Below are positions 35,481 to 54,500 of a stretch of DNA of 64,000 nucleotides, piece by piece. The first letter of the stretch is position 1. Every line of letters starts with the position of its first letter. The position numbers and the translations under genes were made by a program. The notes under the pieces are model-generated. The model ran no database searches. It was not told the origin of the DNA and was given only the letters and a program-made list of their open reading frames with translations. Origin of the DNA: Rhynchonema sp. JSB1_4 (Eukaryota > Nematoda > Chromadorea > Monhysterida > Xyalidae); NCBI GenBank assembly GCA_030248065.1, contig JASAMV010002558.1, positions 62,001 to 126,000 on the forward strand, written 5' to 3'.

Positions 35481-38400
35481 GGTTGGGTGACAGCACTGTA
35501 GTGGCTGGGGGGGGATGGGGGGGATTCCCCCTAGCTAAGGGCTATCTACCGTAAAAACCTAAATAGAAGGGGGCTCTATTAATTCACTGACCGACTGACC
35601 CCATTTTGGGGAGGCTCTATTACGGGGGGTGGGGGGCTCTATTCCGGCATTCCGGGGGGCCTCTATTAATTCACTGACCCGAACCTGAAAAATTGTTCCC
35701 AGAAATACCCCCAAAAACCCCTAAAAATGGGTTTGAAAGGATGTTTTTTCCGTGCCGGGAAGACTCATTACAAATAAAACGGATTAAACGGATTAACCGG
35801 ATTAAACGGATTTTCCCGCTCTGGGGGGAAGACTCATTACAAATAACCCGGATTAAACGGATTAAACGGATTTTCCGGATTAAACGGATTCTGGCGTGCT
35901 GGGGGGAAGACTCATTACGGATTGAAAAATAAAACGGATTAAACGGAATCCCTTGCTATTTCAGGCACAAGAGGTGGAGATGAAGGAATAGAAAAAGAAA
36001 TTTCACGCGGCCGTCTGCTGGCGACTGGCGAGGCGAGGCAACCGATTTTCATTGTGTGCTGCGGTCCTGTGCGTCTGCGTCAGTCGGGGAGGCGGTGGTC
36101 GGTCAACACAACATCAACAACAAGACCAACACATCGCGATCCAACAATTTGTGTCGACCACCAATGGATCAAAACGGTCGGTTACCAATCGGTCAGCTGA
36201 TGTACGGTAAGAACGTGCAAAAACCTAAATACCACCCCCGGAATAGAGTCCCCCAAAAAGGGTCAGTGAATTAATAGAGCCCCCCGGAGTAGAGCCTCCC
36301 CCCAAAGTAAAATCCCCCGCCCATACCCATACCAGTGTTGGAGGTGGGGGGGGTTTGGGGGGTAGCCCCCCCCAGTACAGTAGGTATCCCCCCTCGCCTT
36401 GTACAGTAGGTATCCTCCCCAATGTTTGGCATGGTACAGTAGGTATCCCCCCCGATTTTCACCCCGGTACCGTAGGTATCCCCCCCGATTTTGCCCCAAA
36501 AGTGCCAATTTTGACCAAAATGGCCAAAATTAGTGTAAAATCAGTGGTTTTTGCCTCAAATTACCCAAAATTCGCGCGCTACGCGCGCAAATACTGCGTT
36601 TTCACACGATTCCACACATAATAAACACATTAAAAATTTGCACCCCAAAACCTAACCCCCCCCCCCAACCCCCCCAAACACCCCCTAGGTACATAACCCC
36701 CCAGGCCATCGGCTCTGGTACAGTAGGTATTCCCCCTCTCCGAGCGCGGCACAGTAGGTATCCCCCCTCCAGAGTACCTCCAACACTGCCCCATACCAGT
36801 GTAGCTCCCGGGGGGAGGGGGAGGGGGTCCCTCCCTCGGGTACGCTATCTCCCCCTCAGGTGGTACGTCACTATCCCCCCCTATCTCCCCCAATTTTTTC
36901 CACAAAGGGGCAAAAAATAGGTCAAATTTTCCACCTCAAAAAGTGACTTTTTCTTGAATTTGGGCCTTCCCCCCTTCCCCCCTCGGGGGCAGTGTAGTTC
37001 CTGGTCCGGAGGGGGAGATAGCGGACCAGCGGACCCCCCGTTTTTTTCGGAGGGAGAGATAGTGTACCCCCGAGGGAGGAATGGGAGGGCGAAGACCCAA
37101 ATTCAGGAAAAAGTCACTGTTTGAGGTAGAAAATTTGACCGATTTTCAGCTCTTTTTGGAAAAAATTCTTCATAAAAAGGGGTATTTTGGTGACTTTTAA
37201 CAACATTGACCTAAAAATCACACATTTTCCGCCTAAAAATGCCCATTTTAGGCCTAGAAATGCCTATTTTGGGCAAAAATTGGGGAGATAGTGTACCCGG
37301 AGGGGGAGATAGGGGGATAGTGTACCACCTGAGGCGGAGATAGCGTACCCGAGGGCAGGTAGTACTTGGCCAGGGTGTTGACGATAGATAGATTGGGACC
37401 CGAAATATGTTGACGATAGATAGATGACCCAAGTCCGAAATCTGGGGGGGGGGTCGACCCAAACTTGTTGACGATAGATAGATGGTGGGGCGGGGGGTCG
37501 CCAAAAATCAAGGTATATTATAGTGTACTAAGTAGGTAATAATGTGTGAATATTACTGAAAATGTACAAAGATCTACTAAATCCGCGCGTAGCGCGCGAT
37601 TTGTTGCCTATCTGGGGTAAAAAATACCGATTTTGAGTCAAAAATGTCAATTTTGGGTTCGAAATGTGTTGACGATAGATACATTGTTCCCAGAATTTGT
37701 TGACGATAGATAGATTTGCCCATAAGTGTTGACGATAGATAGATGAAATCAAAAAGTATTGACGATAGATCGATGAATTTCGGGGGGGGCACCCCCTCCC
37801 CCAAGTACTACCCTGCCCGAAAGGGGGACCCCCTCCCCCCAGGAACTACACTGCTCGGGGTTACGCTATCTCCCCCTCCGAAAAAAACGGGTCCGCTATC
37901 TCCCCATCCGCACTAGGAACTACACTGCCCCTGTACGGTGGGAACTACACTGCCCCATACAGTAGTGTATTGAGGCGTAATAGTTGTGCACAGCAGCGCT
38001 GTGGCTTGGTTGTTGTGGGGGCAGTGCTGCGGCTGGGGGTGGCCCCCCGCGGTGAGGTACAGTATCTCCCCCAGTAGTCTGGTAGTACGATATCTCCCCC
38101 AATTTCTCCGAAATTTCACCCCGAAAGTATCCTTTTTAGTCCCAAATGACCAAAAATCGGGTCAAAATCGACCAAAACTGCAAAAACTTGCGCGCTTCGC
38201 GCGATTTATGCACGTTTTACCCTATCAAATGCAATTCTCGCGAAAGTACTGTGGTACAGTATCTCCCTCAAAAATTTCGTCCCCCTTCCCCCTCCAAAAT
38301 TGGATTCCCCCTTAAATTCTGGCCATAGCACTGGTCCCCGGTGGGCAGTGTAGTGGCAGGCAAATGGTTGCAAGGTACCCTTGGGGGAAGTGGATCCAGA

Positions 38401-39130
38401 TGGTTGCAAGGTACCCCCTAACCAGCCTCCGGAAGGTTGCAAGGTACCCCTGAGGTCCAAAAAGGGTGTTTTTTGCATGCATTATACTGCAAACTTGGCC
38501 GAAAAGTTGGTACTTTTCTGCATTTTGGCCGAAAATTTGCCTAAAATACCTATTATATGGAGGCTTGCGCGCGGAGCGCGCGATTTTTGGGGTTTTGAGG
38601 TCGAAAAACACCCATTTTTGCATATAAAAACATAAGATACACTAACCGCCGCGACCAAGGTACACTAGTACACTAGCCGCCCAAAAAAGGCATCTTTTAG
38701 GCCTAAAATGGGCATTTTTAGGCCTAAAATGGGGGATTTTCAGGTCGATGTTGTCAAAAGTCGCCAAAATACCTGTTTTATGGAGATTTTTTCTGAAAAG
38801 GGCCAGAAATCGGTCAAATTTTCGACCTCAAAGAGTGACCTTTTCCTGAATTTAGCCTCAGCGTACAGTACCTCCCCTCAGAAGTAGCCACAGCACTGGT
38901 TGGAGTGGGGGAGGGGAGGGGGTGGGGCTACCCCCAGTACAGTGGGTATAGCCCCTCGCCTGCTACAGTAGGTATTCCCCTCCCCAATTTTTATCCCGGT
39001 ACAGTAGGAACCCCCAATTTTGACCCAACAGTACCCACCCACAAGGGAAATTAGTGTGCTAGTGTACTTTGGTCGGGGAAATCAGTGTACTTTCGGGAGT
39101 CGCCCAGGAACTACGCTGGACCTAACATGT
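35481..39130. repeat. Mosaic of short GC-rich minisatellite-like repeats
   Basis: Non-coding patchwork of degenerate units: CTCTATTCCGGGGG with AATTCACTGACC (35570-35690, 36230-36300), GTACAGTAGGTATCCCCCC (36370-36770, 38940-39010), GGGGGAGATAGTGTACCCCC (37015-37350), GTTGACGATAGATAGAT (7 copies, 37376-37775), GGAACTACACTGCCC (37840-37960), GGTTGCAAGGTACCC (38365-38460) and GGGAAGACTCATTAC (35756-35920). CG-rich hairpins such as GCGCGCTACGCGCGC (36574), GCGCGTAGCGCGC (37586), GCGCGCTTCGCGCG (38190) and GCGCGCGGAGCGCGC (38567) lie among them. Any open frames here are repeat translations. Confidence 0.8.
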
Positions 39131-39211
39131 TTTTGGCCTTGGGCGCCGCTGGTAGTTAAAACAAAAGCTCAATTGAGTAACATTGAAACTAAGTTATGGT
39201 TCTTGTTACAG

Positions 39212-39404
39212 CGGTCGAGATCCTGGCCGGCATTCTCGGCCACAGCAAACTGGGCGAGGCCGAGATTGAGCGCGAGGAGCACGTGCTTCTGCGTGAAATG
39301 GAGGAAATCGAACAGAACCATCAGGAGGTCGTCTTTGATCATCTGCACCAGTCCGCCTCTCAGGCACCCCGCTCGCACGCACCATCCTCGGACCGGTCGA
39401 AAAT
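39212..39404 (+). pseudogene. PMPCB: Isolated exon of mitochondrial processing peptidase beta, frameshifted
   Basis: After a good acceptor (CTTGTTACAG) the frame reads [20 protein letters not shown], then [29 protein letters not shown], which follows the M16-family beta subunit around LGEAEIERE and QEVVFDHLH. At about 39357-39362 the frame must shift by one base to continue the family sequence as [14 protein letters not shown] before the donor GTAAAG. In the original frame it ends SDRSKM and TAA. No other exon of this peptidase is recognised in the window. It is either a captured or duplicated gene fragment, or one exon of a long gene with a sequencing error. Confidence 0.75.
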
Positions 39405-40060
39405 GTAAAGTTGGTGAACTTTGACTGTTTATGTAGATTACATTACATTACAACTAAATGCCAACTTTCGCTTTCAGACGTGGTGCACGACACGTTATGC
39501 AACCTTGACAAGTCAGGCAACAACAACAGTCTGACACGATTGTCAGCAACTTGTCACCGCCGTCGGACTGAGATCACGGCCGAAAAAGATAAAAATTGGT
39601 TTTTAATTTGTTAATTAATTAGAATTATATTAGTAAATAAATTTATTTAATTTTTGTAATGGTGGTATATCCATTCTGAGCAGTTTGCTAACAAAATAAG
39701 TTAGCACAATAGATTTTTTTCAACTGGCAAGTTAGCAAACTGTCGAGGTGGACCAATCACTGTTTTCGGATAAGACTACGAATATTTTTATGAATAATTT
39801 TCGTGTTGATATATTTATGTAAATATAAAGGTAGGTAAGAAAGGTAGGAATAATAATAAGAATAATAATTTGTGCTCGTATTTTGTTTGTGCGTTGTTTA
39901 TTGTGCAGAAAAATGGAATAAAGTTTGGTAAAATGCAACTATGTTTTATTAACTTTATTGTGTTAAATTTCGCTCATTATTGGGACTACATATTCTTCGG
40001 TGTGCAGACTGAGCTCAGTTACTAATAAATGCAAGTTCTGCATGGCAGCAAATCCACAAA
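39405..40060. other. 5' flank of the MULE-USP gene
   Basis: Contains a small inverted repeat, CAGTTTGCTAAC at about 39679 facing GTTAGCAAACTG at about 39731, and a non-coding variant of the 20-mer ACTGTTTCGGATAAGACTAC at about 39758-39779. Terminal inverted repeats of a MULE could not be fixed by eye. Confidence 0.45.
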
Positions 40061-43000
40061 ATGGGAAGAAAGCCACTAAACACCGTTCCGAAATTTTATC
40101 TGGCCAAGGAGTTTCGTACTGTAATTGACCGCGTTGTGCGTGGAGAAGTGCGCACTTTGCGCGAGGAATGGTCACGCTTGCCACAATCGCTGAGAATCAA
40201 CAAACACTACAAACGGCTGGGTGAAATAATCACGAAAATTAGAAATGGACAGTATGAATGGCCACCACAGGTTACTTAATTATTTATGCCTTGATTAATA
40301 CCTGGTGGTGACTTCGTGATGGTCACTATTATTCCGCTGATCAGGTTGAGGTTTCGGATGATGAGGCTGCTGATGACCAAACCACCGGTGCCGGTGTGGC
40401 GTCTCTTTCGTTTGCTTCTGAGACTCGTACCATGACCTCTACCGGTGCAACTGCCGATAATCAAGCATCAACCACTGTTTCGGATAAGACTACCACCTCG
40501 GACAGCAGTGCTGGGTATGTGCACATGATTCCTCACAGTGACACACAAACGCTAACAAACTGGTGCTTGTATGACTTACTTTTCGTGCACCTTCAGCGTG
40601 CTGCCTCCTGTTGCCTCCCCGACTCAGAGCGCGATCCCCACCAGTGCAACTGCCGGTAATCAAGCATCAACCACTGTTTCGGATAAGACTACCACTTCGG
40701 ACAGCAGTGCTGGGTATGTGCACATGATTCCTCACAGTGACACACAAACGCTAACAAACTGGTGCTTGTATGACTTACTTTTCGTGCACCTTCAGCGTGC
40801 TGCCTCCTGTTGCCTCCCCGACTCAGAGCGCGATCCCCACCAGTGCAACTGCCGGTAATCAAGCATCAACCACTGTTTCGGATAAGACTACCACTTCGGA
40901 CAGCAGTGCTGGGTATGTGCACGTGATTCCTCACAGTGACACACAAACGCTAACAAACTGGTGCTTGTATGACTTACTTTTCGTGCACCTTCAGCGTGCT
41001 GCCTCCTGTTGCCTCCCCGACTCAGAGCGCGATCCCCACCAGTGCAACTGCCGGTAATCAAGCATCAACCACTGTTTCGGATAAGACTACCACTTCGGAC
41101 AGCAGTGCTGGGTATGTGCACATGGTTCCTCACAGTGACACACAAACGCTAACAAACTGGTGCTTGTATGACTTACTTTTCGTGCACCTTCAGCGTGCTG
41201 CCTCCTGTTGCCTCCTGTACATGGATTGACTATGACTTCACACAAAGCAAAGTATCTCGTTTAACTTCTCAGCTCCACCGCTTTGAACGACACGCCCCAA
41301 CCCGCTGCTCAGGACGACGCTGATGTTTCAACTCAGTCAGAGAGCGACGACGACGGCCACCAGACGCCGACTCAAGTTGTTGGGTACGGCATACATTAGC
41401 CACAATCTCATGCCACCCGTGCGGTTACTGCAGGCTAACCTGGCATGATGTTTCAGATCGGTGATCGAAGGTCTGCTAACCCAACGCAAGAAGGAGCACG
41501 GAGTTGCCTACGAGTCCAACATTCCGGGCTTGTACTTCATCTACAATCTCCACGGCGAGCAACGTCCCGGCAAGCGACATCTGCAATGTCGATGTCAAAA
41601 AGCCACGCGTTCCGAGGTGCTTCTCGATGGTCAATGGGTGCTACAAAAAGCCAACAACAACCACCATCCAGCCAAGTGCAAAGTGCGCACCAAGCTGGAA
41701 ATCGCCCACGAACAACTCGAGTTTGAGCGATGCAGGATGGTGTCCGAAGCCCAATACAAACCGTTTCAATCAACCATAATGGTGAGGTGTTCCTTGTCGG
41801 TTGAACTCCTGTGTTCTTGCGGGGGACACAATGTCGATTTGACCAGCGTACATAAAGTAGGTAGCTCCTCAAGTGTCCAGCAAAAAATTTTACAATGATA
41901 ATTTAGCAAATGCTACACCCACCAGCAGATGAATGCAAATAAAAATGTCACATAAAAACAAAAAGACCTGTCCCAATGTGCGTAAGACCCAATGTCACTA
42001 TAAGAATGGCACATGTTTAACTATTTCAGTGCCTGACCAAAAAGCTACAAGAGTGCGCTGTCAAATTCGACGTGTCGGAGTATCAGCTTTACTCCAAATT
42101 CCTGCCGCACTTTTCTGCGAAGCGCAAAATGAACAACCATTGCACGAAGCGCAGCGGTGCCAAGGTTGACTTGAACGACCCGCCGGACGAGTTCAAGTTC
42201 TGTTTGGGATTCGATCGTTCAAAAAAAGAGAAGTGAGTATTTGATATTTTTTACTCCCTTATTATTAATCTGTCGAGAATTTAGGGTTTGTGTATGGTCA
42301 CGATCACGAACAAAACTGAAGCAGAAACGACATGTTTTTAAAGCAAAAAGCAGCCAATAAATCACAGGTACTTTCTTGGCCCGACTCGCGCTGACACCGA
42401 CGAACTGCTTTGTGCCGTGTACTCATCAGAAGAACAAGACATGAGGCGGGCAGCCGACACTGAGGAACTATTTATCGATTCTACGTTCGCCACTGCACCA
42501 AAAGGATACAAGCAGACTATGGGTGTAATGGCCAAAGTGAGTGACTTCAATGGTGCTATGTATATGTACGCGTAATTTAGCTTACACATGAGGATGGAAG
42601 CCAACATACAGTTTTTTACCTTTTCTAAAATCGTTTCAGATGGGCACTTCGACCACCTGCGTAATGCACTCGTACATGCGCAAAAAGAGTCTGCCGGTGT
42701 ACGAGCAAGTATTCGATACTTGGCTCAAGGGCATGAAACGTGCTGGGTTCGTGCCGAAATGGAAACGAATCATGATGGATTTTGAAGAAGCCCAGACACA
42801 AGCGTTCATCAAAAAAATGAAGGAAATTTTCCCTGATGTGCAGTTTGACGTGAGTATTATCCGCATACATTTGCGTATAACATGCGAAACTGTTTTCCAA
42901 AGTCATTCTTGTTGTCATGCCCATCACATTATGCATGATGCACATAGCAGCCGACTGGTTATCGGTCATTTAAGTCCGCAATCCACCGTAGAGTCATGTG

Positions 43001-46000
43001 TACCATACTGTGGTTGTATATTGTACCGATCTCGTCACGATTAGGCTATTGGCGAATCTTTAAACTCCAAAACATTCGTTTGTCCTTTCAGCTGTTGCAC
43101 TGCGTGTTTCACTATGCTCAGTGTATCATGCGTCGTCTGCGAAAGCACGGTCTGAAGCTGAAATACGACTCGAGCAAGGAGTTCCGTACGTGGTACAACA
43201 CCCTGTTGGCACTGCCGTTGCTACCAGCCGACGACGTGATGATGCTCTGGGATGCCGGGTTGTTTGGTCTGCCGCCGCGGCTCAGGCGGTTGCTGGGCAG
43301 CGATGCTGGCAAAGCAGACAAACTATTGAAGTCGCTCTACGTACGTATGCCTTGCTTTTTACACCTAGGCCGGTATACACTTCAGATTATAAGATTATAA
43401 TCAATTAAACAATTATAAAGTATGAGTTCTTGATTGTGACTTTATCTAATTGCAGAAGACGTTCCTGGCGCCTGGCTGTCGATTTAACATCAGGTATTGG
43501 TGCCATTTCAACAACCCGGGGTCACGAACGAATAATTCGATGGAGGGGCACTGGGGTGCTAATCGAAGGCACGTTTAATCTAGTCAGTCGACCGTTGTTT
43601 CGACTTGTTAACACATTAATCGATATCCCGTGATCTGATCCGATCAGATCGGACAGATCTCAAAACCGATGGATTCTCATATAGTCATTTTGGATGGATT
43701 CTCATATGTCATTGTGCGACCAATATCGACCGTATACGTAATCTGTGTGGCATCTTTTACTGAAAACTGCAAGGTTACTGAAAAAAAACTTTCCAGGCTG
43801 GGCGCGCCAACTGGCAATCCGACGACTGGTCGAGTGCTGGAATTCACGTGGAATCGTCACGCCATGGAACAACATGAAGCGTTGCATATGGAGAGGGGGC
43901 GAATGCGAGAGGTCGTGTGTGTGCAAGTTACCATTCGTTATTGTGATGTTAACGGGACGATAGGAACAGTATCAGTGCAACGAAAGGTGACACTGGGCCA
44001 ACCGTTGTTCTCTCAGGTCGAATATGCGTACATCACATTGCACAAAGAGCTTCTTGACGCACGCCGTGATTTTGTGAAGCGTGATGAGCTGCTAAAAGTG
44101 ACTTTTGAGCAAGACAGCTTGCTGCATTTGTGGCGATCGTGTGATGATCCGGGAGACGATCCACTGAAAGTTTGTTCAGTTTGAATCGGCTTTATCAGCT
44201 TACACCTGTCGACCGAGCTTTCTATCCACTTTCATCCAGCTGACGTGTACAGTGTTGCGAACATACCACCACATATAGTTTGCTCTGTCACCAATTACAT
44301 TGTGTTGCTCAGAAGCTGGCGTTGGAAACAAAGCGACGGCTGGTGCGTGACCACAGGCCATTCCCTGATGTTCCCTGGCAGGCGGATGGTCCCGACATTC
44401 GACAGCAGAAACTGGCTGCAATTCACCGCTGTATCAGAGAAACACTGGTCCTCAAATTTGCTCGACGCATGTCATTCGCTCAGGTATGTACTGTACATGG
44501 CTAATGTACTGTAATGTGTATGCACTGAGCCAACAGTGTCAGTTCCTGAGCATATAAACGTTTTTGTGCTGATAAAACATAATGGTGTTCTTTTTACGTG
44601 CAGGCAAAAGCCAAACGCGCCAAACAGTCAACCAGGAGCAACGATTTGGCGACCAAAGGCAGAAAACGGCCGGTGACACTCGCTGTCTCAGACGAGCAAC
44701 CAGTTATTCCACCCAAGCGAACGCGCGTGAATGTGACACAAAAACCGCCCAGCCCACGGCAAGAATCTAAGGGTACGTACTGTATGCATTCAGATTCAGG
44801 TGTTTCCATAAAAACCAGTTTTTGAGTCACAAAGTATCACCTTTTCGTGTTCGTGGCTGTTGCAGTTTTGACCAGCGTAAATACTGCTTATTAGGCACAG
44901 AAGGACAACTTTCACGCTGGTCAAAATCACAGCAGTAACTTCATGTTCCATCACGAGCTATCGAAGGTATCCAACTATATCCAAAGTAATGCAATGAAGA
45001 TGAGCAACATTTTTATCGTCTCTGGATCCGATCTTTCGACATTCAGGTATCCAGCGAGCAGTTGGTCAGCCCCCGACTCGACGAGCAATTTGGCTTGCAC
45101 AGGCAAGGAAGAAGGGCCGCAGGCTGCATTACGAACGCACACAACAGCGACCACCTACAGACAGTCTGCGAACAAGAAAAGGGTGTGTTTCAGTGGGGAA
45201 TATGAACTCTAAATGCTGTTATTCACTGTACTTCTCTGCGTGCAGGCATCAGAATCCCGACCTACGGTGCTTCGCCGCTGCTGGATCTCAACTTGTGGTG
45301 CAAAATCGGACATTTGGTGACGCAATCGCCCATTATTCTCCACCACCATTTCAGTTCGTCACCAGACCAGCTCGGTAGGTTCTTCAAAATTTTGATGCCA
45401 GTATCAAACTTGGTGATCGGGTCAAATACGAATTTGGTCAAATTGGGTCCCATTTAATAAAATTGTCATAAGCTGAAACTGAAATACAATGGAACTTACA
45501 GTTCCCTTTCTATTCAATACATTCAGATTCATAATTTTCAGCAATGACACAACGGCGCCGTGCCCCACTGTTTCGGATAAGACTACTGGTGTTGCGTGCT
45601 CGACCCCAAGCCCCACTGTTTCGGATAAGACTACTGATGTTGCGTACTCGACCCCAACCGTTGCCTCGGCTCCGTGCCCCACTGTTTCGGATAAGACTAC
45701 AGCCAAAGATTCGAATTCACCGACTGACGCTATTTCACAGTACGTCTCCGTCTCACTTTTTGCTTAATCACACATTGTAACATATAGGCATCGTGGAAAA
45801 TAGCAAGTTGTTGCCATTCTATAGTCACTGCATGTAACAAATTCTCACCGGTTTTAGTATTTTATGTGTGCACCAGGGATTATGTATGTAGGTACACATA
45901 ATAATGAAAAACACCTTGGATTTTCAGTGCACTGTACGGCTTGTACAAGCAACGCAACCAGAGTTCGCAAAGTGCGCTCAAGGTTCAAGCGTTGACCGAG

Positions 46001-47867
46001 CTAAGGAATGCCGTTAGTGCGTTCATGCTCGAAGATGACCAGGACCACGCAGACAAGGGTGTGATGCGGGTAAGTAATGCACCCAACAATGATTACCAAA
46101 TGAATACATAGCTATACGTATGTATACAGTATTATACGTAATTTAATGGGTAATTGCAAAATGGTTGATGTGCACTGCACCGACGAACAGCTCACGCCAT
46201 GCGATGGGATCGAAGTTAATTTGAAATAAACTTATATGCCTTGTATTGTATTGGCGTGTGACGAAAGGCTTGCGTTTGCGTGCGTACCCCTGTTTGCACT
46301 CCTCCAACGTACCAAACTTACTGTAATTAGCACAGTACGTATAATTCAGGACGCTGCCGAGTTTGTGACCATCATTCTCCGACAGTTACCCCGAGAAGGC
46401 TGCATGCTACTGGACATCCCAGACATCTACTCGTTTGATCAGCAGCACATGTTCTCCTGCCAAGATTGTCAGCGTTACCAACCAGTACAAGGTTATCTAA
46501 ATTTAGTGCTTTTCTTGATCCTGAAGTGTACGCATATATTGAACACAGAGTCCAGTCTCGCCAGAATCGGTGATAAATTATTACGATGCACACAGGAGGC
46601 TTCGATTTCCGCGGGGTGCTTGTCCGGAATCTTCAGGTGGTACAAAAGTAGCACATGGATATATGTATGTAAAGGCAAACTACACCAACACGAGCCCAAC
46701 TTCGAAGGTGGTGTGTGTTCAAAAACGAAAAGAAAGAGAAAATCATCATGCTCCACTTTGTATTCTTCACCGTGTAACAATTCCCAAATTAGCAGCCACG
46801 TATGAATGTTTCACCGTTCTGCCAGCTGCGAAATCGAGCTCATGTTGGTGTAGTTTGCCTTTACCTCTTGAATTGTTGCAGGGCTGATTGACACGGACAT
46901 GAACAGTGTTTGGGTGCGTGTCAGCCACCTGCCAGCGGATATCGACTCAATGCAGCAAGTGCTGGAGTGGTACGGCAAACCGCACGACAAACATCCAGAC
47001 CGAGTGGGCAGGGACTCGGATGGTGACGATCGGTCACATCAAGGTGTCAACGAAGTGCCTGACGCTGTGTGCGTGCACTGCAGTGGTACGCACATTTGGC
47101 CAGCAAAACGATTGCAGCTGTTGGGCAAGTGAGTAAGGCAGCGTACTGCAATGCTATCTGGTCCTTGACAGGTATACGCGATGCGCACCATGTCATCATG
47201 AACTTTATGCAAACATTGGGCACTCTTTAGTCAGTCCTGATTAAACATTGGGTGACAGCTGCAACGTTGTATCAGTCACGTCATAACGCAAACGCAGCAA
47301 TCGGGATCAGGTCTCAAGGAAAATAAATAAATGTTGTCCAAATTACAGGCTTTTGTTTGTGTGGCTCGACCGTCGGTTGAATGAGTTCGGCACACAACCT
47401 CACGGCGGTCTCGGACAGCTAAGCGACAAACCAATTCAACTCGAGCCGACCATCAAGCTCAACTCAATCACCAGTGTTCGGTACCCACCATACCGCACGG
47501 TGGGCGTATTGGTGAGAACTGGAGGTTAGTAAATTATCGGCCAGACACACAGGTATTATACCGTATGACCAATACGTTTGTGTTTTAGTATGTTTGCTGG
47601 GCCATATGTTCATATCGGAATCAAAAGCAGCAGTCAATGAATATGACAACACAAAACGAAGTATTCTGCAGGATAAGAGTCCAAAGAGCTGTTTTTTTTT
47701 CAGCGCACTTCATCACATTTGCTGAGGTGGAAGGCCGGTGGAAGAAATTTGATGACGAAAACGTGACCGAAACAAAGTTTGCTGAAGTGGCAGCTCAAAG
47801 TGCAACCAATGCTGTCATGGTGTTGTACGAAAACGTAACTGATGAGATCTTGTTTGCACCATTTTAG
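40061..47867 (+). CDS. MULE transposase fused to ubiquitin-specific protease
   Basis: Twenty-four exons: 40061-40270, 40345-40514, 40597-40713, 40796-40912, 40995-41111, 41273-41383, 41457-41781, 42030-42232, 42368-42536, 42640-42849, 43092-43340, 43456-43568, 43797-43911, 44017-44169, 44313-44483, 44604-44772, 45047-45182, 45246-45374, 45542-45739, 45928-46069, 46350-46491, 46882-47128, 47349-47524, 47704-47867. Phase is continuous for 1350 codons. Order: unrecognised N-terminus; Ser/Thr-rich repeat linker (about 71-280); FLYWCH-like zinc domain (about 295-355); MULE transposase with LFIDSTF (D494), MMDFE (D560), CVFH (C587/H590) and TNNSMEGHW (E696); basic linker; C19 protease with a Cys-box candidate NPDLRCFAAA (C960), a VSDKTT-repeat insert, DAAEFV, zinc-ribbon CQDC and CVHC, His-box GAHFITF (H1298) and FDDENV (D1314). 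Inferred role: transposition plus removal of ubiquitin. The exon 12 donor is GC. Two separate genes are possible, but no stop or start separates the halves. Confidence 0.85.
40396..41220 (+). repeat. 199-bp tandem repeat containing one exon and one intron
   Basis: Units repeat every 199 bp, each with a 117-bp exon (39 codons) and an 82-bp intron beginning GTATGTGCAC and ending CTTCAG. Three full exon copies start at 40597, 40796 and 40995; the preceding exon (to 40514) ends in the same sequence and a truncated fifth copy follows at 41194. Introns are phase 2, so adding a unit keeps the frame. The exon product is Ser/Thr/Pro-rich with the core TVSDKTT. The copies are almost identical, introns included. 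Confidence 0.95.
44858..44935. mobile_element. Tiny inverted-repeat element, TTTTGACCAGCGT ends
   Basis: In a MULE-USP intron, GCAGTTTTGACCAGCGTAAA faces TTTCACGCTGGTCAAAATCA over about 78 bp. A diverged relative may lie in a GMPS intron at about 61543-61596 (TCGACCAACGTAAAAGTTG facing CAACTTTTAGCTTGGTCGA). Confidence 0.45.
45566..45700 (+). repeat. Three coding copies of the VSDKTT repeat in the USP domain
   Basis: ACTGTTTCGGATAAGACTAC occurs at about 45567, 45615 and 45681 within one exon, giving TVSDKTT three times. The same 20-mer is in the linker exons 5 kb upstream, so repeat material has spread between two parts of the gene. Confidence 0.9.
46672..46861. mobile_element. TA-flanked MITE, copy 1
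   Basis: About 190 bp in a MULE-USP intron. Ends read AAAGGCAAACTACACCAACA and the inverted GTTGGTGTAGTTTGCCTTT, flanked by TA on both sides, which suits Tc1/mariner-type insertion. No coding capacity. It contains an internal CATCATGCTCCACTTTGTAT segment shared with other copies. Confidence 0.75.
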
Positions 47868-48300
47868 TTCGCTTCAATTTGTGTTTTTTCCCGGTGATTT
47901 ACTTGTCATTCCTGATTCCTTCATTGTGTGCATGCTCTTGTTTCTTGTGCAAAATCAGCTGTGCATTTTGTCCATTTTTGCTGGCAAAAAGATTATTGAA
48001 CGCATCGTAGATTGTTGAACGTAGCGATATCACGTTTGGGCTTTGTTTTTCCTGCTTGGTGTTGTTGGAGACAGAAAATGTTCGTCTGCAGCTGTCAGCA
48101 GTTGGCATACAAGTCAAATATGTTGTCCCCAAAACTGCGAACAATCACGCAACATTTTGCGTTCACTCGTTCGGACAAGGTCGGACAAACAACTGCAAAC
48201 AACACAAAAGACACACCAAACACAACCTAATCCTACGCACGCAACCCCACACACAAGCGCTTCACGCCACACCGGCCATACGCACGTTCCGCGTAATTCT
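47868..48300. other. 3' flank of the MULE-USP gene
   Basis: No gene recognised. Short open frames (for example 48056-48310) have no family resemblance. A right-hand terminal inverted repeat would be expected here if the gene lies in an intact MULE, but none was found by eye. Confidence 0.4.
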
Positions 48301-48660
48301 GTCAGCATAATGAGTCTTCCCCCCAGCTGCCCAACCCAGGAAGGCTCATTATATGCATGACACTGCACGCGTAATAAGCCTTCCTGGGATTGGGCCCTGG
48401 GGGGAAGGCTCATTATCAGTCCGTTTTATTTATAATGAGTCTTCCCCCCAGAGCATCTGCAGGGTATACTCATTACAATAGTAATGAGTCTTCCATCAAC
48501 CGTTTTTTCTCTGGTAATCGCATTTATTCGTGTCAGAGGTCGCAATCGGGCCGGCCCGACCTCGGGCCGGGCCGGGCCGGGCCGGGCCGGGCCGGGCCGG
48601 AGATTTGGAGGGTCGGGCCGGGCCGGGCCGGGCACCCCGGCCCGAAGCTTCTGAAGTGAC
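48301..48660. repeat. AATGAGTCTTCCCCCC repeats and a partial hAT-type MITE
   Basis: AATGAGTCTTCC occurs at about 48308, 48433 and 48482, with inverted GGAAGGCTCATTAT at about 48342 and 48404. From 48534, CAGAGGTCGCAATCGGGCC opens a run of GGGCC units matching one end of the MITE at 50855-51011; the other end is missing or diverged. Confidence 0.65.
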
Positions 48661-49019: not shown

Positions 49020-49122
49020 TGCCGAACCTAGGGGGGACCCCCCGCCCCCCCCCACACCCCTTCGCAGTGCGGGGGCGGGGGGGGGGGGGGGGCGCCGGGG
49101 CCCCCCCCCCCCCCCCCCCCCC

Positions 49123-49193
<71 letters not shown>

Positions 49194-49990
49194 CCCCGAC
49201 CCCTACCCCCAAAATTCCCCACCCCCAATCCAAAAATCCCCAACTCAAACCCTAAAAAACCCAAAAAAACAACACCTGCGCGCGCGCGAAATACGCCCCC
49301 ACACGAAAAAAACAAACACGCAAACAAATAAACCCGTGCCCCACCCCCCCCCCCCCCCCCCCCCCCCCCCACCCCCACCCACCCCCCCCCCCCCCCCCCC
49401 CCCGACCCCCCACCCCCCCCCCCCCCCACCCACCCCCCCCCCCCCCCCCCCCCCCCCCCCCACACCACCCCACACCACCCCCAACAGTCCCCGCCGCTCC
49501 TCCCCCAACTCGATACAACTCCATGAAAAACAAACAAACAAAAACAAAAAAAATTCTCAAAAAACCAAAAAAAAATAAGCCAAAAAACTGACACAAAAAG
49601 CCAGGCACGGGCGCCGCGGGGGGCCCGGCCGGGGGCGCGGGGACACGGGGCGGGAGGGGCGGGACGGCCGGGCGGGGGGGCGGGGGGCGGGGGGCGGGCG
49701 GGGCCGGAGCGGGGCGGGCCCGGCCAGGCCCGGCCCGGCCCCGCCCGGCCATACCCGCCCCTACGACAAGCGCAGATTCGTCACTAACCCACAAACAAAC
49801 GCGCAAAAACCAACAACAAACCAGCACACAAGCACCAAAACACAACAGAAAACCACAAACACACAACAGAACACAGACATAGAAATAGCCAGGGGGGCAA
49901 CGCGGCGCCCAGCCCCCCCACCCCCCCCCACCCCGCACCCCACGGCGACCCCAGAACGCACCGGCCGCGCCCAGCACCCACCCCTCACAC
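49020..49990. repeat. Poly-C tracts and A/C-only sequence
   Basis: Near-pure C runs of about 90-130 bases lie around 49100-49192 and 49340-49460, joined by sequence almost lacking T and G on the plus strand, then a G-rich stretch (49610-49740) and more A/C-rich DNA. Proline- or glycine-rich open frames here are translations of low complexity. Such tracts are difficult to sequence and may include assembly artefacts. Confidence 0.7.
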
Positions 49991-51400
49991 CCCCAAACCC
50001 CCGCTCACAGGCAATTTTATACCTTTTTAAGGCAAAAACCGGTGTTTTTCGACCTTATTTTCCCAAAAAACCCACCCTAATACCTATTTTTAGGCGATTT
50101 TCGGCGAAAATTTTGAAAAAGTACTGTTTTTACCTCAATTTTTGGCCAAAATTGTATCACAAAAACGATGTTTTTTCGCCTTTTTGGGTGACCAAAATCA
50201 TACCTCTCACGCTTCCGGTTCCGGTCCCAACCCCGCATCATACTTACCTCCCACACATGGGCCTGCCACTACACTGCTTTGGGAGGGGGGCTCTATTCCG
50301 GGGGGGCTCTATTAATTCACTGACCCCTTTTTTGGGGGGGCTCTATTCCGGGGGAAGGGGCTGTATTTTGGTTTTTACGGTATCTCGAGTCAAACCTTAG
50401 GAGGGATGGGGGAAAGGGTATCTATCTCGAGCCGACCCCAAAGGGTATCTCGAGTAAGTAGATTTATGCTTTTCAAAGGCAAAAATAGGTGTTTTTCGAC
50501 CTCAGAACCCCAAAAAATCACGCACTCCGCTCGCAAACACCCAAAAATGGTCATTTTAGGCCAATTTTCGGCAAAAATATCAAAAAGTACCCATTTTTAG
50601 GCCGATTTTGCAGTAAAATTGCATGCAAAAAACGGCCTTTTTTCGCCTTTTGACGGACCATAGGGGTATCTTGGGTAGCCTCTGGGGGCCCCCAAGGGTA
50701 CCTTGCAACCATCTGCCTGCCACTACACTATTAAGCATAACCCCATACAGGCTTCTATTTCAGGCTTAGGCTTAGGCTTGCGGTTAGGCTTAAGCACCAG
50801 CCTGAATCAAATAAAACACACAGCCACGACCCGATTCCCACCTCTCCTACACTGCAGAGGTCGCAATCGGGCCGGGCCGCGCCGCGATTTTGGGCTTTTG
50901 GTTCGGGCCGGGCCGGAGATTTGGGATTTCGGGCCCCGCCGGGGTGGGCCCGAGGCCCCGAGAGGTCGGGCCGAGCCGGGCCGGCCAAACTCGGCCCGAT
51001 TGCGACCTCTGCTACACTGGTTTAGTGGGTTGTATTTTTTGGGGCTCTATTTTAGGCAGGGAGATAGTGTACCCCCGAGGGGGGGAAGGGGGGGGGAAGA
51101 GCCAAATTCAGGAAAAAGTCACTTTTTGTGGAAAATTTGACCTATTTTTGCCCTTTTTGGAAAAAATTCTTCATAAAAAGGGTATTTTGGCGACTTTTGA
51201 GAACATTGACCTGAAAATCACACATTTTTGGCCTAAAGATGCCTATTTTAGGCCTAAAAATGCCTATTTTAGGCAAAAATTGGGGGAGATAGTGTACCTG
51301 GAGGGGGAGATAGGGGGATAGTGTACCACCTGAGGGGGAGATAGCGTACCCGAGGGGGGGACCCCCCTCCCCCCAGGAACTACACTGATTTTAGGGAATA
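49991..51400. repeat. Second block of the short-repeat mosaic
   Basis: Contains the same unit types as the 35.5-39.1 kb block: CTCTATTCCGGGGG and AATTCACTGACC (50280-50390), GGTACCTTGCAACC (50697), GGGGGAGATAGTGTACC (51055-51350), TGCCTATTTTAGGC (51240-51280) and GGAACTACACTG (51376). No gene. It encloses the hAT-type MITE below. Confidence 0.75.
50855..51011. mobile_element. hAT-type MITE with 8-bp target duplication
   Basis: 157 bp, with terminal inverted repeats CAGAGGTCGCAATCGGGCC and GGCCCGATTGCGACCTCTG (the right copy slightly different inside). It is flanked by CTACACTG at 50847-50854 and 51012-51019. CAG-type termini and an 8-bp duplication are typical of hAT elements. The interior is made of GGGCC units. 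Confidence 0.85.
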
Positions 51401-51540
51401 CGGTGGTTGTGTGTGTGATGTGATTTGTGTCTGTGTGTGTGTGTGATTATTATCTCATGATTTGATTAATTTGCAGGAATAAAAAGGTCAGGTCAAACGC
51501 ATCCAGTTTCATCCGCGTGCGAGCCAGAAGACCAACTGAA

Positions 51541-54500
51541 ATGGCGACGACGTCAGTGAACAAAGTTGAGGCATTTCTTCGGAACAAAAAGGAGTCCGCC
51601 AGCACAACAGAACAAGCAGCCAAGTGGAGGCGATTGGAAGAACAGTATTCCAAAAAGTCGGTCTGGTCCTGGCGTGAGGCATATAATTTTTCGTTCCTTA
51701 TAGTAAACGTAAATGGTAAATGTAAACGGTTATGGATTTTATCAGTGTACCGTAAGACCTAAAATACAGTGCTGTGGATGGGAAGGGGGTCCCCCAAAGG
51801 TACAATATCTCCCCCTCGCCAGTACGTACGGTATGTGGCCCCCGCGCTCAGGTACAGTATTTCCCCGTCCCCGTCTCTGGGACGGTATCTCCCCCAATTT
51901 TTCCAAAATTTCACCCCAAAAGGCCAAAAGTGTCCTTTTTGGTCCAAAATGGCTAAAAATCGCGCAAAATCTACCAGAAGTGCAAAAATTTGCGCGGTAC
52001 GTTTTAACTCACCAAAATTGAATTCCCACGAGACCAGTATGGTACAGTATCTCCCCCCAGCCCGCCCCAAACCGGATTTCCAACAGCGTCTTCACGTCAT
52101 GCTCATACATGTACCATCGCAGATCGTCGTATCCCAAAGCGATACTGCTGTATTTTATCAAAGTTGCGAAAGAATTGGTTCTTTATATTTTGTGAAAAAA
52201 ACGAAAAAAACGAAAGATTTCCACATGATAAATTTCCAATTCCAGTACATGATCAAATAACAGGTACAGGGTATTTGGACCCCAAAAACGGCTGTGAAAG
52301 TACACTGTAAAGACACAACGTGTCATTGAGACATAGAAACTGCTCAAAATATCCAAGTTACATTGATTCTGAACTCCAGATGGACGTAGGCATTAATGAA
52401 CCTCCAGAATGTTGAAAAATTGGATTCAAAAACGCTATTTTTGTCAAAAGTTGGACAAACCTTGTCCCGGTTTTTCATGGATCGAAATTTGTTTTCGGTT
52501 GAAAAAATGGCCCGGTTTTTTCGTTTTTTTTCATGAAAAATAGAAACCCATTCTGTTCCATTCATAAGTAACTACATATTTTATTTCAGATTATGGCATC
52601 CGTTGACGCAGACATTGCTCTCCTACGTGAATGATAAAGAATTCTGCAAGGATGTCGATTTATACGAGGTGAGTGAATGGCCTGTTTCTTTGTCCTTTCT
52701 TCATCACGCTTTCGTGTGGCTCGCAAGTTGTCAGGGACAAATTTGCAGAAGAAGGGTAAACGGTCCGCACAGCTCGTCCTTGTATTACTGTTGCACGCAG
52801 TCAGTGTATCATGTGGCCCTTTTCGAGCCGTCGAAATTTTCACACTATTTTCAGCTGTACCAGAAGTTCATCGACGACTTCAAACATCGCGTCAATCCGC
52901 TGGCGCTCGTTCAATTGTCGTTGCCGATCTCGAAGACCATTGCAGGCGTGTTGTGCTTGTGTGAATTGTGTTTTCATTTTTGCAATGTGTTATTTTTGTG
53001 CTGGTTTTTATATATGCAGTGTAATTTTCGTGTTGGCCGTTCCAGATCAACAGGCCGGCGAAACATTCCTTGGCGAGATCGAGCACGTCGTCAAATCGCA
53101 TCCGGAAAGCGTGATTCTGTGTCGGACGGGCGTTGTCGACCTGATGTTGGCCGATAAGGATGCCAAAAATCGATGTCCGCACATCGGAAAAGTGGCCGTG
53201 AGTCTATGTAGTGACCGAAAATCACACCTTGTGTGTGTGAATGCATGTTGTTACACTTTTGTATCCATTTTTAGGATAAGCTGAAGGAACTCGAATCGAT
53301 GATCGACGCGATCGAAGGCGTCAGCCCTGTTCATGGACCGTTCTATAAAGTTGGCTTGGTTCAGATACGGTTGTTTTCGTGATTCTAGCACGCTGAATTG
53401 CAAACAACTTGAGTTTTACGAAACCTTCATGGTTTTGCGGCATCTTTTTGAGCGAACGTTCAGGTGTCGGCCACATACCGTCGTGAGATCGGTGACCACA
53501 GTGGTTTCTATCGCGAAGCGCTACGGTATCTCGGTTGTGTCGAATTTGAGACTGGTTGGTGTGTTTATTTTTTTTTGAATATGTTTGCTCAGATAGGAAT
53601 TTAAAACTCACTTCTTTTTTGTTTCAGTGGAGGACAAGCAGATTTGGGCAGTGTGCCTTGCCGTCGCTGCGCTGCTCGCCACGGACGTGTATAATTTTGG
53701 TGAATTGGTTCGTATTCTCGCTTGTTCCGTTTGATGCTTCAATTCGATGCGTATCATTATAAGGGAAGGACTTGTTGAAATTAGTCAGGCAGTCGGCATC
53801 GCCGTCTTTCTCTGATGATTATCAAACATGTTGCCCTTTACATGGTGATTTAGTGAACGTTTTTTGCGCCGTTGAGAAATGTTTTCTTGTTACATTAACC
53901 GTCTTGCCGGATCAGGAACTACACTGCGATACACACGAGCAAACTACGCCAACCCGAGCTCGATTTCGCAGCTGGTATGCCCACAAAACGAATGGAAAAA
54001 GAAAATGCTCATGTACCACGTTGTATTCTACAACGTGTAACATTTGCCAAAGCAGCCACGTATGAATGTTTCACTAATCCGCCACCTCCGAAATCGGGCT
54101 CGTGTTGGCGCAGAGTTACTATACACGTTATGTACCGTACTATGTAGTGAGCACTGTTTCCGAAAATTGCAGTCTTGATCGTGTCAGTTCGCTGGAAAAG
54201 GGCATAGCCATTGTTCATCCGCTGTTTTTTCTAAAACTGATTTCTTCTCGAGGTTCTGCGTTACAGCGGTATTGTCAAGCATTGGTCAAGTTTTCGGCTT
54301 TCTTTATCTGAGTAACGGGAAGCAGTGCTGTGTTTGCAGCTGGCGCTGCCGATCATCGACGTTCTACGCCAAATGAAGGAAGAATGGCTAGTGCAAGTGT
54401 TGATGGCCGTGAATGAAGGCAATATGGAGAAATTCATGTCGTTGAAGAAACACTGGGAAAACAGTCCATATACGGATCTGAAGACGTCCAATCAAGTGAT

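Follow-up and report, generated by a model that had tools for sequence, protein, structure and literature searches.

A divergent transposon of the Mutator-like element (MULE) type, whose main gene encodes a transposase carrying a ubiquitin-specific protease (USP) at its C-terminus, is very probably contained in the 64,000-nucleotide stretch analysed here (the window; Rhynchonema sp. JSB1_4, contig JASAMV010002558.1, positions 62,001 to 126,000). The window is part of contig C1550 in the searched genome assembly (204 Mb, 5747 contigs), and contig labels such as C139, C408 and C1550 denote contigs of this same genome. As a whole, the element is read here, with modest conviction, as a MULE-type transposon with a transposase–USP fusion whose active USP acts in cis and most likely deubiquitinates the transposase.

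In our exon model, the fusion gene occupies 40061..47867 on the forward strand and consists of 24 in-phase exons that join into 1351 stop-free codons. An earlier note, made from the sequence of the window alone, had described 24 exons, about 1350 codons and a single open gene combining a MULE transposase with a C19 USP. This description was borne out, and the gene sits inside a transposon. The 23 introns are 63–390 bases long; 22 are of the GT-AG type and one, after position 43568, is GC-AG. An extra exon at 41194-41217 was dropped from the model, as a spliced alignment exposed its lack of a proper donor; the Pfam scan of the window's fusion protein used a 1359-residue version that includes this exon.

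The C-terminal half exhibits the sequence features of a USP. Pfam UCH (PF00443) matches the window's protein with 24.2 bits (E 3.1e-5; cut-off 23.9) at residues 1067–1347 of the scanned version (1059–1339 of the final model), within residues 950–1350, where the earlier note had proposed that profile searches look for C19. The isolated USP part scores 27.8 bits. UCH exceeds the cut-off in all three fusion proteins scanned (24.2, 63.9 and 76.8 bits) and is found in each of four USP domains with E ≤ 0.1 (lowest E-value 2e-18); in C4323 (2.6e-21) and C408 (2.3e-17), the match begins at profile position 1. A profile of C4323, C408 and C2981 retrieves the window's protein with an E-value of 1.1e-22 in a single-sequence search. 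Among four aligned USPs, three of which are 25–29% identical to the USP of the window's copy, the asparagine and cysteine of the Cys box, the DAxEF motif, both CxxC pairs, the histidine, a tryptophan and D1315 are all invariant. The Cys boxes of the distant copies are GFSNPDQRCYANSVIALL (C4323), GFLNFDNRCYVSGPTQLL (C408) and FMNADNRCYATTPTVLL (C2981). The earlier note had assigned a candidate catalytic triad to C960, H1298 and D1314; the aspartate is at that position, and the cysteine and histidine are each located one residue higher, at 961 and 1299. Position 1314 is D, D, N and N across the four USPs, and position 1315 is always D. The claimed CQDC (1146) and CVHC (1220) pairs are present in the 1351-residue model. 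The conserved triad and CxxC pairs suggest that the USP half would be an active deubiquitinase. In a comparison of the USP profile with solved structures, USP21, USP46 and USP12 ranked highest, FAF-X, USP2, USP8 and USP15 matched too, and a 476-residue ‘ubiquitin carboxyl-terminal hydrolase 8’, which we take to be yeast Ubp8, was found further down. Neither Peptidase C48 (Ulp1) nor a ubiquitin-like domain has a Pfam match in the fusion protein at E ≤ 1.

The transposase half contains the claimed residues D494, D560, C587/H590 and E696, which are invariant across three aligned transposases. PF10551 (MULE) matches the window's protein with 20.8 bits (E 5.3e-4; cut-off 27.6) at residues 500–600 (492–592 of the final model). 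A transposase profile was built from the window's copy and two distant copies (35–36% identical) and compared by hhalign with an ordinary MULE found in this genome, a 492-residue open frame above the cut-offs for MULE (1.9e-10) and FLYWCH (2.5e-9). The comparison gave a probability of 97.9% (E 3.6e-13, 313 columns), and the match stops 15 residues beyond the last acidic residue. The same profile retrieved nothing from the solved structures at E ≤ 1. The FLYWCH-like zinc domain described in the earlier note is not supported by profile; Pfam gives no FLYWCH match at E ≤ 1, though a CxC..H..C cluster exists. The fusion protein is thus without the N-terminal FLYWCH finger of the Phantom subclass at this threshold. 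The ordinary MULE in which FLYWCH was detected at 2.5e-9 is L001 (919-2394 on C2915), and a second ordinary MULE is L002 (C5047). No convincing USP match was found within the 3.2 kb of sequence examined for each of these two.

The two halves are joined by a linker that is in phase and alignable across the window's copy, C4323 and C408. Between codons 847 and 1095, the modelled exons contain no in-frame ATG, and a separately started USP would therefore be hard to make from them. Reading phase, the missing ATG and the same layout in the distant open copy C408 suggest that the exons would belong to one transcript.

Judged from the sequences, the fusion recurs in remote subfamilies within the genome and bears the marks of purifying selection. 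At least 17 contigs match this transposase core (contig counts of transposase and USP matches are lower bounds), and 12 of the 17 have a USP match downstream on the same strand at a distance of 108–1572 bp. Most of both halves is retained by seven of the 12 (C1550, C139, C546, C408, C4323, C2797 and C2981); only stretches of both halves are matched in the other five (C2651, C1579, C4193, C73 and C2272). The remaining five of the 17 comprise two matches that end 32 and 266–308 bp from a contig end, one ordinary MULE family and two single short matches. In C408, whose fusion is ∼33% identical to the window's protein, 15 exons (948 residues) are open from the zinc cluster to the end of the USP without a stop or frameshift, the start and stop codons lying outside the model. 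C408 and the window agree in intron phase at four places: 2 ahead of the Cys box, 0 ahead of DAxEF, 2 ahead of the LLFV/YFLV strand and 1 ahead of the catalytic histidine. The alignments contain one frameshift in C4323, one stop and one frameshift in C2797, and a damaged MULE tail in C2981. The closer relatives C139 (50–92% identical by stretch) and C546 (41–87%) span the fusion, and C1074 lacks the MULE core but retains its N-terminus and USP. The ratio of nonsynonymous to synonymous divergence (dN/dS; Nei-Gojobori) is 0.05 versus C139 and 0.10 versus C546 in the MULE core. For the catalytic parts of the USP it is 0.20 and 0.12, respectively. Constraint therefore acted on both halves across much of their divergence, and the ratios also cover the decay of these copies.

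The transposon extends past 40061..47867, the coordinates of the earlier note, to 35751-48501. C1877 retains 35747-36698 (97% identity) and 45411-48502 (99%), and C2564 retains 35753-39683 and 46911-48502 (some 98%); both are flanked by different sequence and are missing the middle part. In C2258 the left end is preserved and the match stops at 48142, and C1074 shares the right end up to 48505 at lower identity. The ends shared by derivatives with other flanks therefore define an element of 12,751 bp. A perfect 7-bp direct repeat is observed at the junctions of five of six two-ended copies (the window's, two in C1877, C4192 and C2224, the last read by eye); in the sixth, C2564, there is no direct repeat at the junctions. 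In each of these five copies the left repeat is preceded by a G, and G is also the last base of the element; a duplication of 8 bp with an initial G would account for the sequences equally well. MULE target-site duplications are 8–11 bp long. That of Spectre is 8 bp, and MULE terminal inverted repeats measure 14–500 bp (PMC6446971). Close to its tips, the present element has an identical core of 14 bp, accompanied by repeated subterminal motifs; the tips themselves differ. A search of the genome with the two ends yielded 498 and 366 first-look candidate places, 40 of each being scored. C2224 and C4192 are ∼0.7-kb elements that have both ends; they are too short for the gene and therefore would have been moved by a transposase from elsewhere. 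Its junction repeats and the derivatives at other sites mark the element, at the level of sequence, as mobile.

Several observations weigh against this reading of the element. PF10551 remains under its cut-off in all three fusion proteins (20.8, 20.3 and 22.5 bits); the element is classed as a divergent MULE because of the profile comparison, the cut-off being a curated score and not a defining trait. The Cys box of the window's copy is divergent, with UCH starting only at profile position 46 and a profile built without this copy giving its Cys box 3.2 bits. Among the closer relatives, C139 (two stops, four frameshifts) and C546 (three stops, ten frameshifts) are broken in the alignments, and their dS of 1.27–1.42 is near saturation. 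Other USP dN/dS values are less telling (0.24 for C1074, 0.35 for C2564 and ∼0.6 on three changes for C1877). Of 40 contigs with a USP match, 28 have no transposase match (including C3909, C1609, C2034, C3940, C1412, C4977 and C5152), and the 2.5–2.7 kb upstream of the USP in C3909, C2034 and C3940 contain no MULE profile match. Four of the 28 (C1877, C2564, C2258 and C1074) share parts of the element and look like deletion derivatives. The USP-only contigs may represent truncated copies, copies with diverged transposases, free-standing or domesticated USPs, or other elements. They leave the whole fusions standing, yet the USP is clearly not always accompanied by a recognisable transposase. 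The fusion is so far known from one genome only. Searches of protein databases with the window's protein, C408 plus C4323, and the USP alignment returned nothing at E ≤ 1e-3 (7999, 8000 and 7167 candidates); their reach is poor, because ordinary USPs were not returned either. A scan of viral contigs gave 120 pattern matches, none of which was confirmed.

Because it is tethered to the transposase, the USP would work in cis on the transposition complex. It would most likely strip ubiquitin from the transposase, and perhaps also from partner proteins on the same DNA, and the deubiquitinated transposase would escape degradation before DNA cutting and joining. The simplest benefit of the USP would be the protection of the transposase from ubiquitin-dependent loss; Helitron deubiquitinases may prevent proteasomal degradation of transposition proteins (PMC9741609), and a role in transposition or repair has been suggested for the Ulp1 and OTU domains of transposons (PMC2836005). 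That such cis-protection is the main job of the USP is put forward tentatively, at somewhat less than an even chance. Self-processing of a polyprotein is unlikely because Pfam detects no ubiquitin-like domain in the fusion protein at E ≤ 1.

A serious rival accepts the fusion as real but gives the tethered USP other main substrates, namely ubiquitinated proteins of chromatin or repair, such as H2A and H2B, at donor and target sites; the USP would thereby open silenced chromatin or steer repair of the excision gap. This is considered unlikely, but it draws weight from the nearest solved relatives, since USP21, USP46 and USP12, and presumably Ubp8 lower in the ranking, are enzymes that act on histones. 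A basic linker and a DNA-bound transposase would also put the enzyme on chromatin, and the repair role suggested for Ulp1 and OTU domains (PMC2836005) points the same way. The structure ranking is, however, separated by a few bits, and FAF-X, USP2, USP8 and USP15 match as well. In a bolder form, to which a still smaller chance is given, the transposase would be its own chromatin editor, with the USP deubiquitinating histones or repair factors at the element ends and the target. Such an element would govern how accessible its target is and how the gap left behind is repaired.

The halves could also be two adjacent genes of one element that are joined only on paper. The Mutator element MuDR carries two genes, mudrA and mudrB, and the poor conservation of the linker and of an exon inside the USP, together with the many USP matches that lack a transposase, could be accommodated in this way. 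This arrangement is nevertheless improbable given the absence of an in-frame ATG from codons 847 to 1095 of the modelled exons, the linker shared in phase by three copies and the USP-half intron phases that are equal in a 33%-identical copy. Recent capture of a host USP fragment as a passenger, in the style of Pack-MULEs, would suit the tendency of MULEs to acquire host gene fragments (PMC6446971). It is very improbable, as the fusion occurs in subfamilies with 25–29% identical USPs and invariant catalytic residues, dN/dS is 0.12–0.20 between the closer copies, and no recent source gene was found, the matches to the USP query being copies of the same subfamily or one-exon matches at 39–42%. 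Least probable of all is a domesticated host gene that is a transposon no more; the window's copy is the sole full-length open copy found in its subfamily, with C139 and C546 decayed, but it is bounded by junction repeats, its 97–99% identical deletion derivatives C1877 and C2564 lie at other sites, and its two ends have hundreds of candidate places.

Table 1. Positions within the window of the transposon, its fusion gene and associated repeats
Feature	Position	Strand	Details
Whole transposon	35751..48501	+	12,751 bp, CGTGCCGGGAAGACTCATTAC...GTAATGAGTCTTCCATCAACC; both ends shared with C1877 and C2564
Left target-site duplication	35743..35750		GTTTTTTC; 7 bp (TTTTTTC) if the last G of the right end is assigned to the element
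Right target-site duplication	48502..48509		GTTTTTTC
Left end, subterminal motif	35751..35918	+	three exact copies of GGAAGACTCATTAC
Right end, subterminal motif	48307..48501	-	four copies of GGAAGACTCATTAC or close variants, inverted
Possible second gene (weak)	36164-36206, 39212-39404, 39478-39508	+	3 exons, 88 aa
Transposase–USP fusion gene	40061..47867	+	24 exons, 1351 aa
Fusion exons 1-8	40061-40270, 40345-40514, 40597-40713, 40796-40912, 40995-41111, 41273-41383, 41457-41781, 42030-42232	+	
Fusion exons 9-16	42368-42536, 42640-42849, 43092-43340, 43456-43568, 43797-43914, 44017-44169, 44313-44483, 44604-44772	+	
Fusion exons 17-24	45047-45182, 45246-45374, 45542-45739, 45928-46069, 46350-46491, 46882-47128, 47349-47524, 47704-47867	+	
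Tandem repeat	40441..41215	+	199-bp unit (one exon plus one intron), 3.9 copies
CxC..H..C cluster	41587..41679	+	C325, C327, H351, C355; invariant in three aligned transposases; without FLYWCH profile match
MULE catalytic core	42368..43568	+	D494 (42477), D560 (42778), C587/H590 (43101-43112), E696 (43543)
Basic linker between both enzymes	44604..45182	+	no Met in codons 847-1095
USP Cys box	45246..45374	+	GHQNPDLRCFAAAGSQLVVQ; N956 (45253), C961 (45268)
Remaining USP	45928..47867	+	DAAEF (46350), CQDC (46458), CVHC (47070), H1299 (47706), D1314/D1315 (47751)
Motif TTTCGGATAAGACTAC	39764, 40478, 40677, 40876, 41075, 45571, 45619, 45685	all +	8 exact copies; expected 0.01

The element and its surroundings contain further repeats (Table 1). 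Of the eight copies of the motif TTTCGGATAAGACTAC, one lies upstream of the gene, four lie in N-terminal exons and three in the exon within the USP. Its AAGACT core recalls the end motif of the element, and in C139 a different 15-mer is common to the N-terminus and the USP insert. The 390-base intron contains an inverted repeat (46669-46864) with 43-nucleotide arms that are 86% complementary. It is probably a nested miniature inverted-repeat transposable element, and similar stretches are found at 53939-54125 of the window and in C2981 and C1877. Composite dispersed repeats resembling GGGGGAGATAGTGTACC occupy 36250-39020 and 50280-52060, both within the element and on its right-hand side, in direct and inverted order; copies are also observed in C1074, C2258 and C2564. 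The possible 88-residue second gene was sought in C139, C1074, C2564, C4323 and C2258; it is complete only in the derivative C2564, and its first exon is found in C2258. Near-pure C runs lie to the right of the element at 49101-49197 (97 bases) and 49339-49461 (123 bases). Elsewhere in the window, a fibronectin type III domain (10.9–11.4 kb) and a protein-tyrosine phosphatase domain (18.3–18.9 kb) mark the host as an animal and presumably belong to one LAR-type receptor phosphatase.

The earlier note knew of no MULE with a USP, and none was found among the best-ranked papers of a literature search, with subscription literature, supplements and Repbase outside its scope. The words ‘protease’, ‘peptidase’ and ‘ubiquitin’ do not occur in the main texts, supplements aside, of PMC6446971 (1631 MULEs) and PMC13359780 (arthropod MULEs). 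The suggestion that the system is undescribed is thus supported, within this search, for the MULE–USP pairing but not for the kind of system, as C19 with a DDE transposase (one case) and transposon deubiquitinases of other classes have already been reported. Mutator elements with an Ulp1 protease occur in hydra, lancelet and plants (PMC2836005) and likewise carry a ubiquitin-family cysteine protease; the protease of the present element is instead of the C19/USP class (PF00443) with CxxC pairs, and no C48/Ulp1 match is obtained at E ≤ 1. Ginger1 likewise encodes a single protein in which a protease is fused C-terminally to the transposase, but that transposase is Gypsy-integrase-like and the protease is OTU or Ulp1 (PMC2836005). 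In the Trichomonas vaginalis protein XP_001314237.1, Peptidase C19 is joined to a DDE transposase of another family (transposase_11); the available part of the source mentions this single protein in one sentence, without copies or conservation (PMC2836005). Helitrons with VTD or OTU deubiquitinases share a transposon-borne deubiquitinase and its suggested role as a guard against degradation of transposition proteins, but they are rolling-circle elements with RepHel and another protease class (PMC9741609). Tm1, a Phantom-subclass MULE of root-knot nematodes, is an animal MULE with asymmetric ends, and the motif at its end, CGGTTAA and then GGA, is similar to the right end of the present element (CGGTTGATGGA; CGGTTAATGGA in copy C2224). 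It differs in having a 496-residue transposase with FLYWCH and mostly 9-bp duplications, and a protease is unmentioned in the available part of the source (PMC3169594).

Proteases that cleave ubiquitin or SUMO have been described for no fewer than four kinds of transposon or transposase (PMC2836005, PMC9741609). The MULE–USP pairing has been kept through deep divergence in one genome, which suggests that the protease activity itself is useful to transposons. The fusion would fix protease and transposase at a 1:1 ratio on the same DNA, and a ubiquitin limit on transposition would be directly testable with one Cys mutant.

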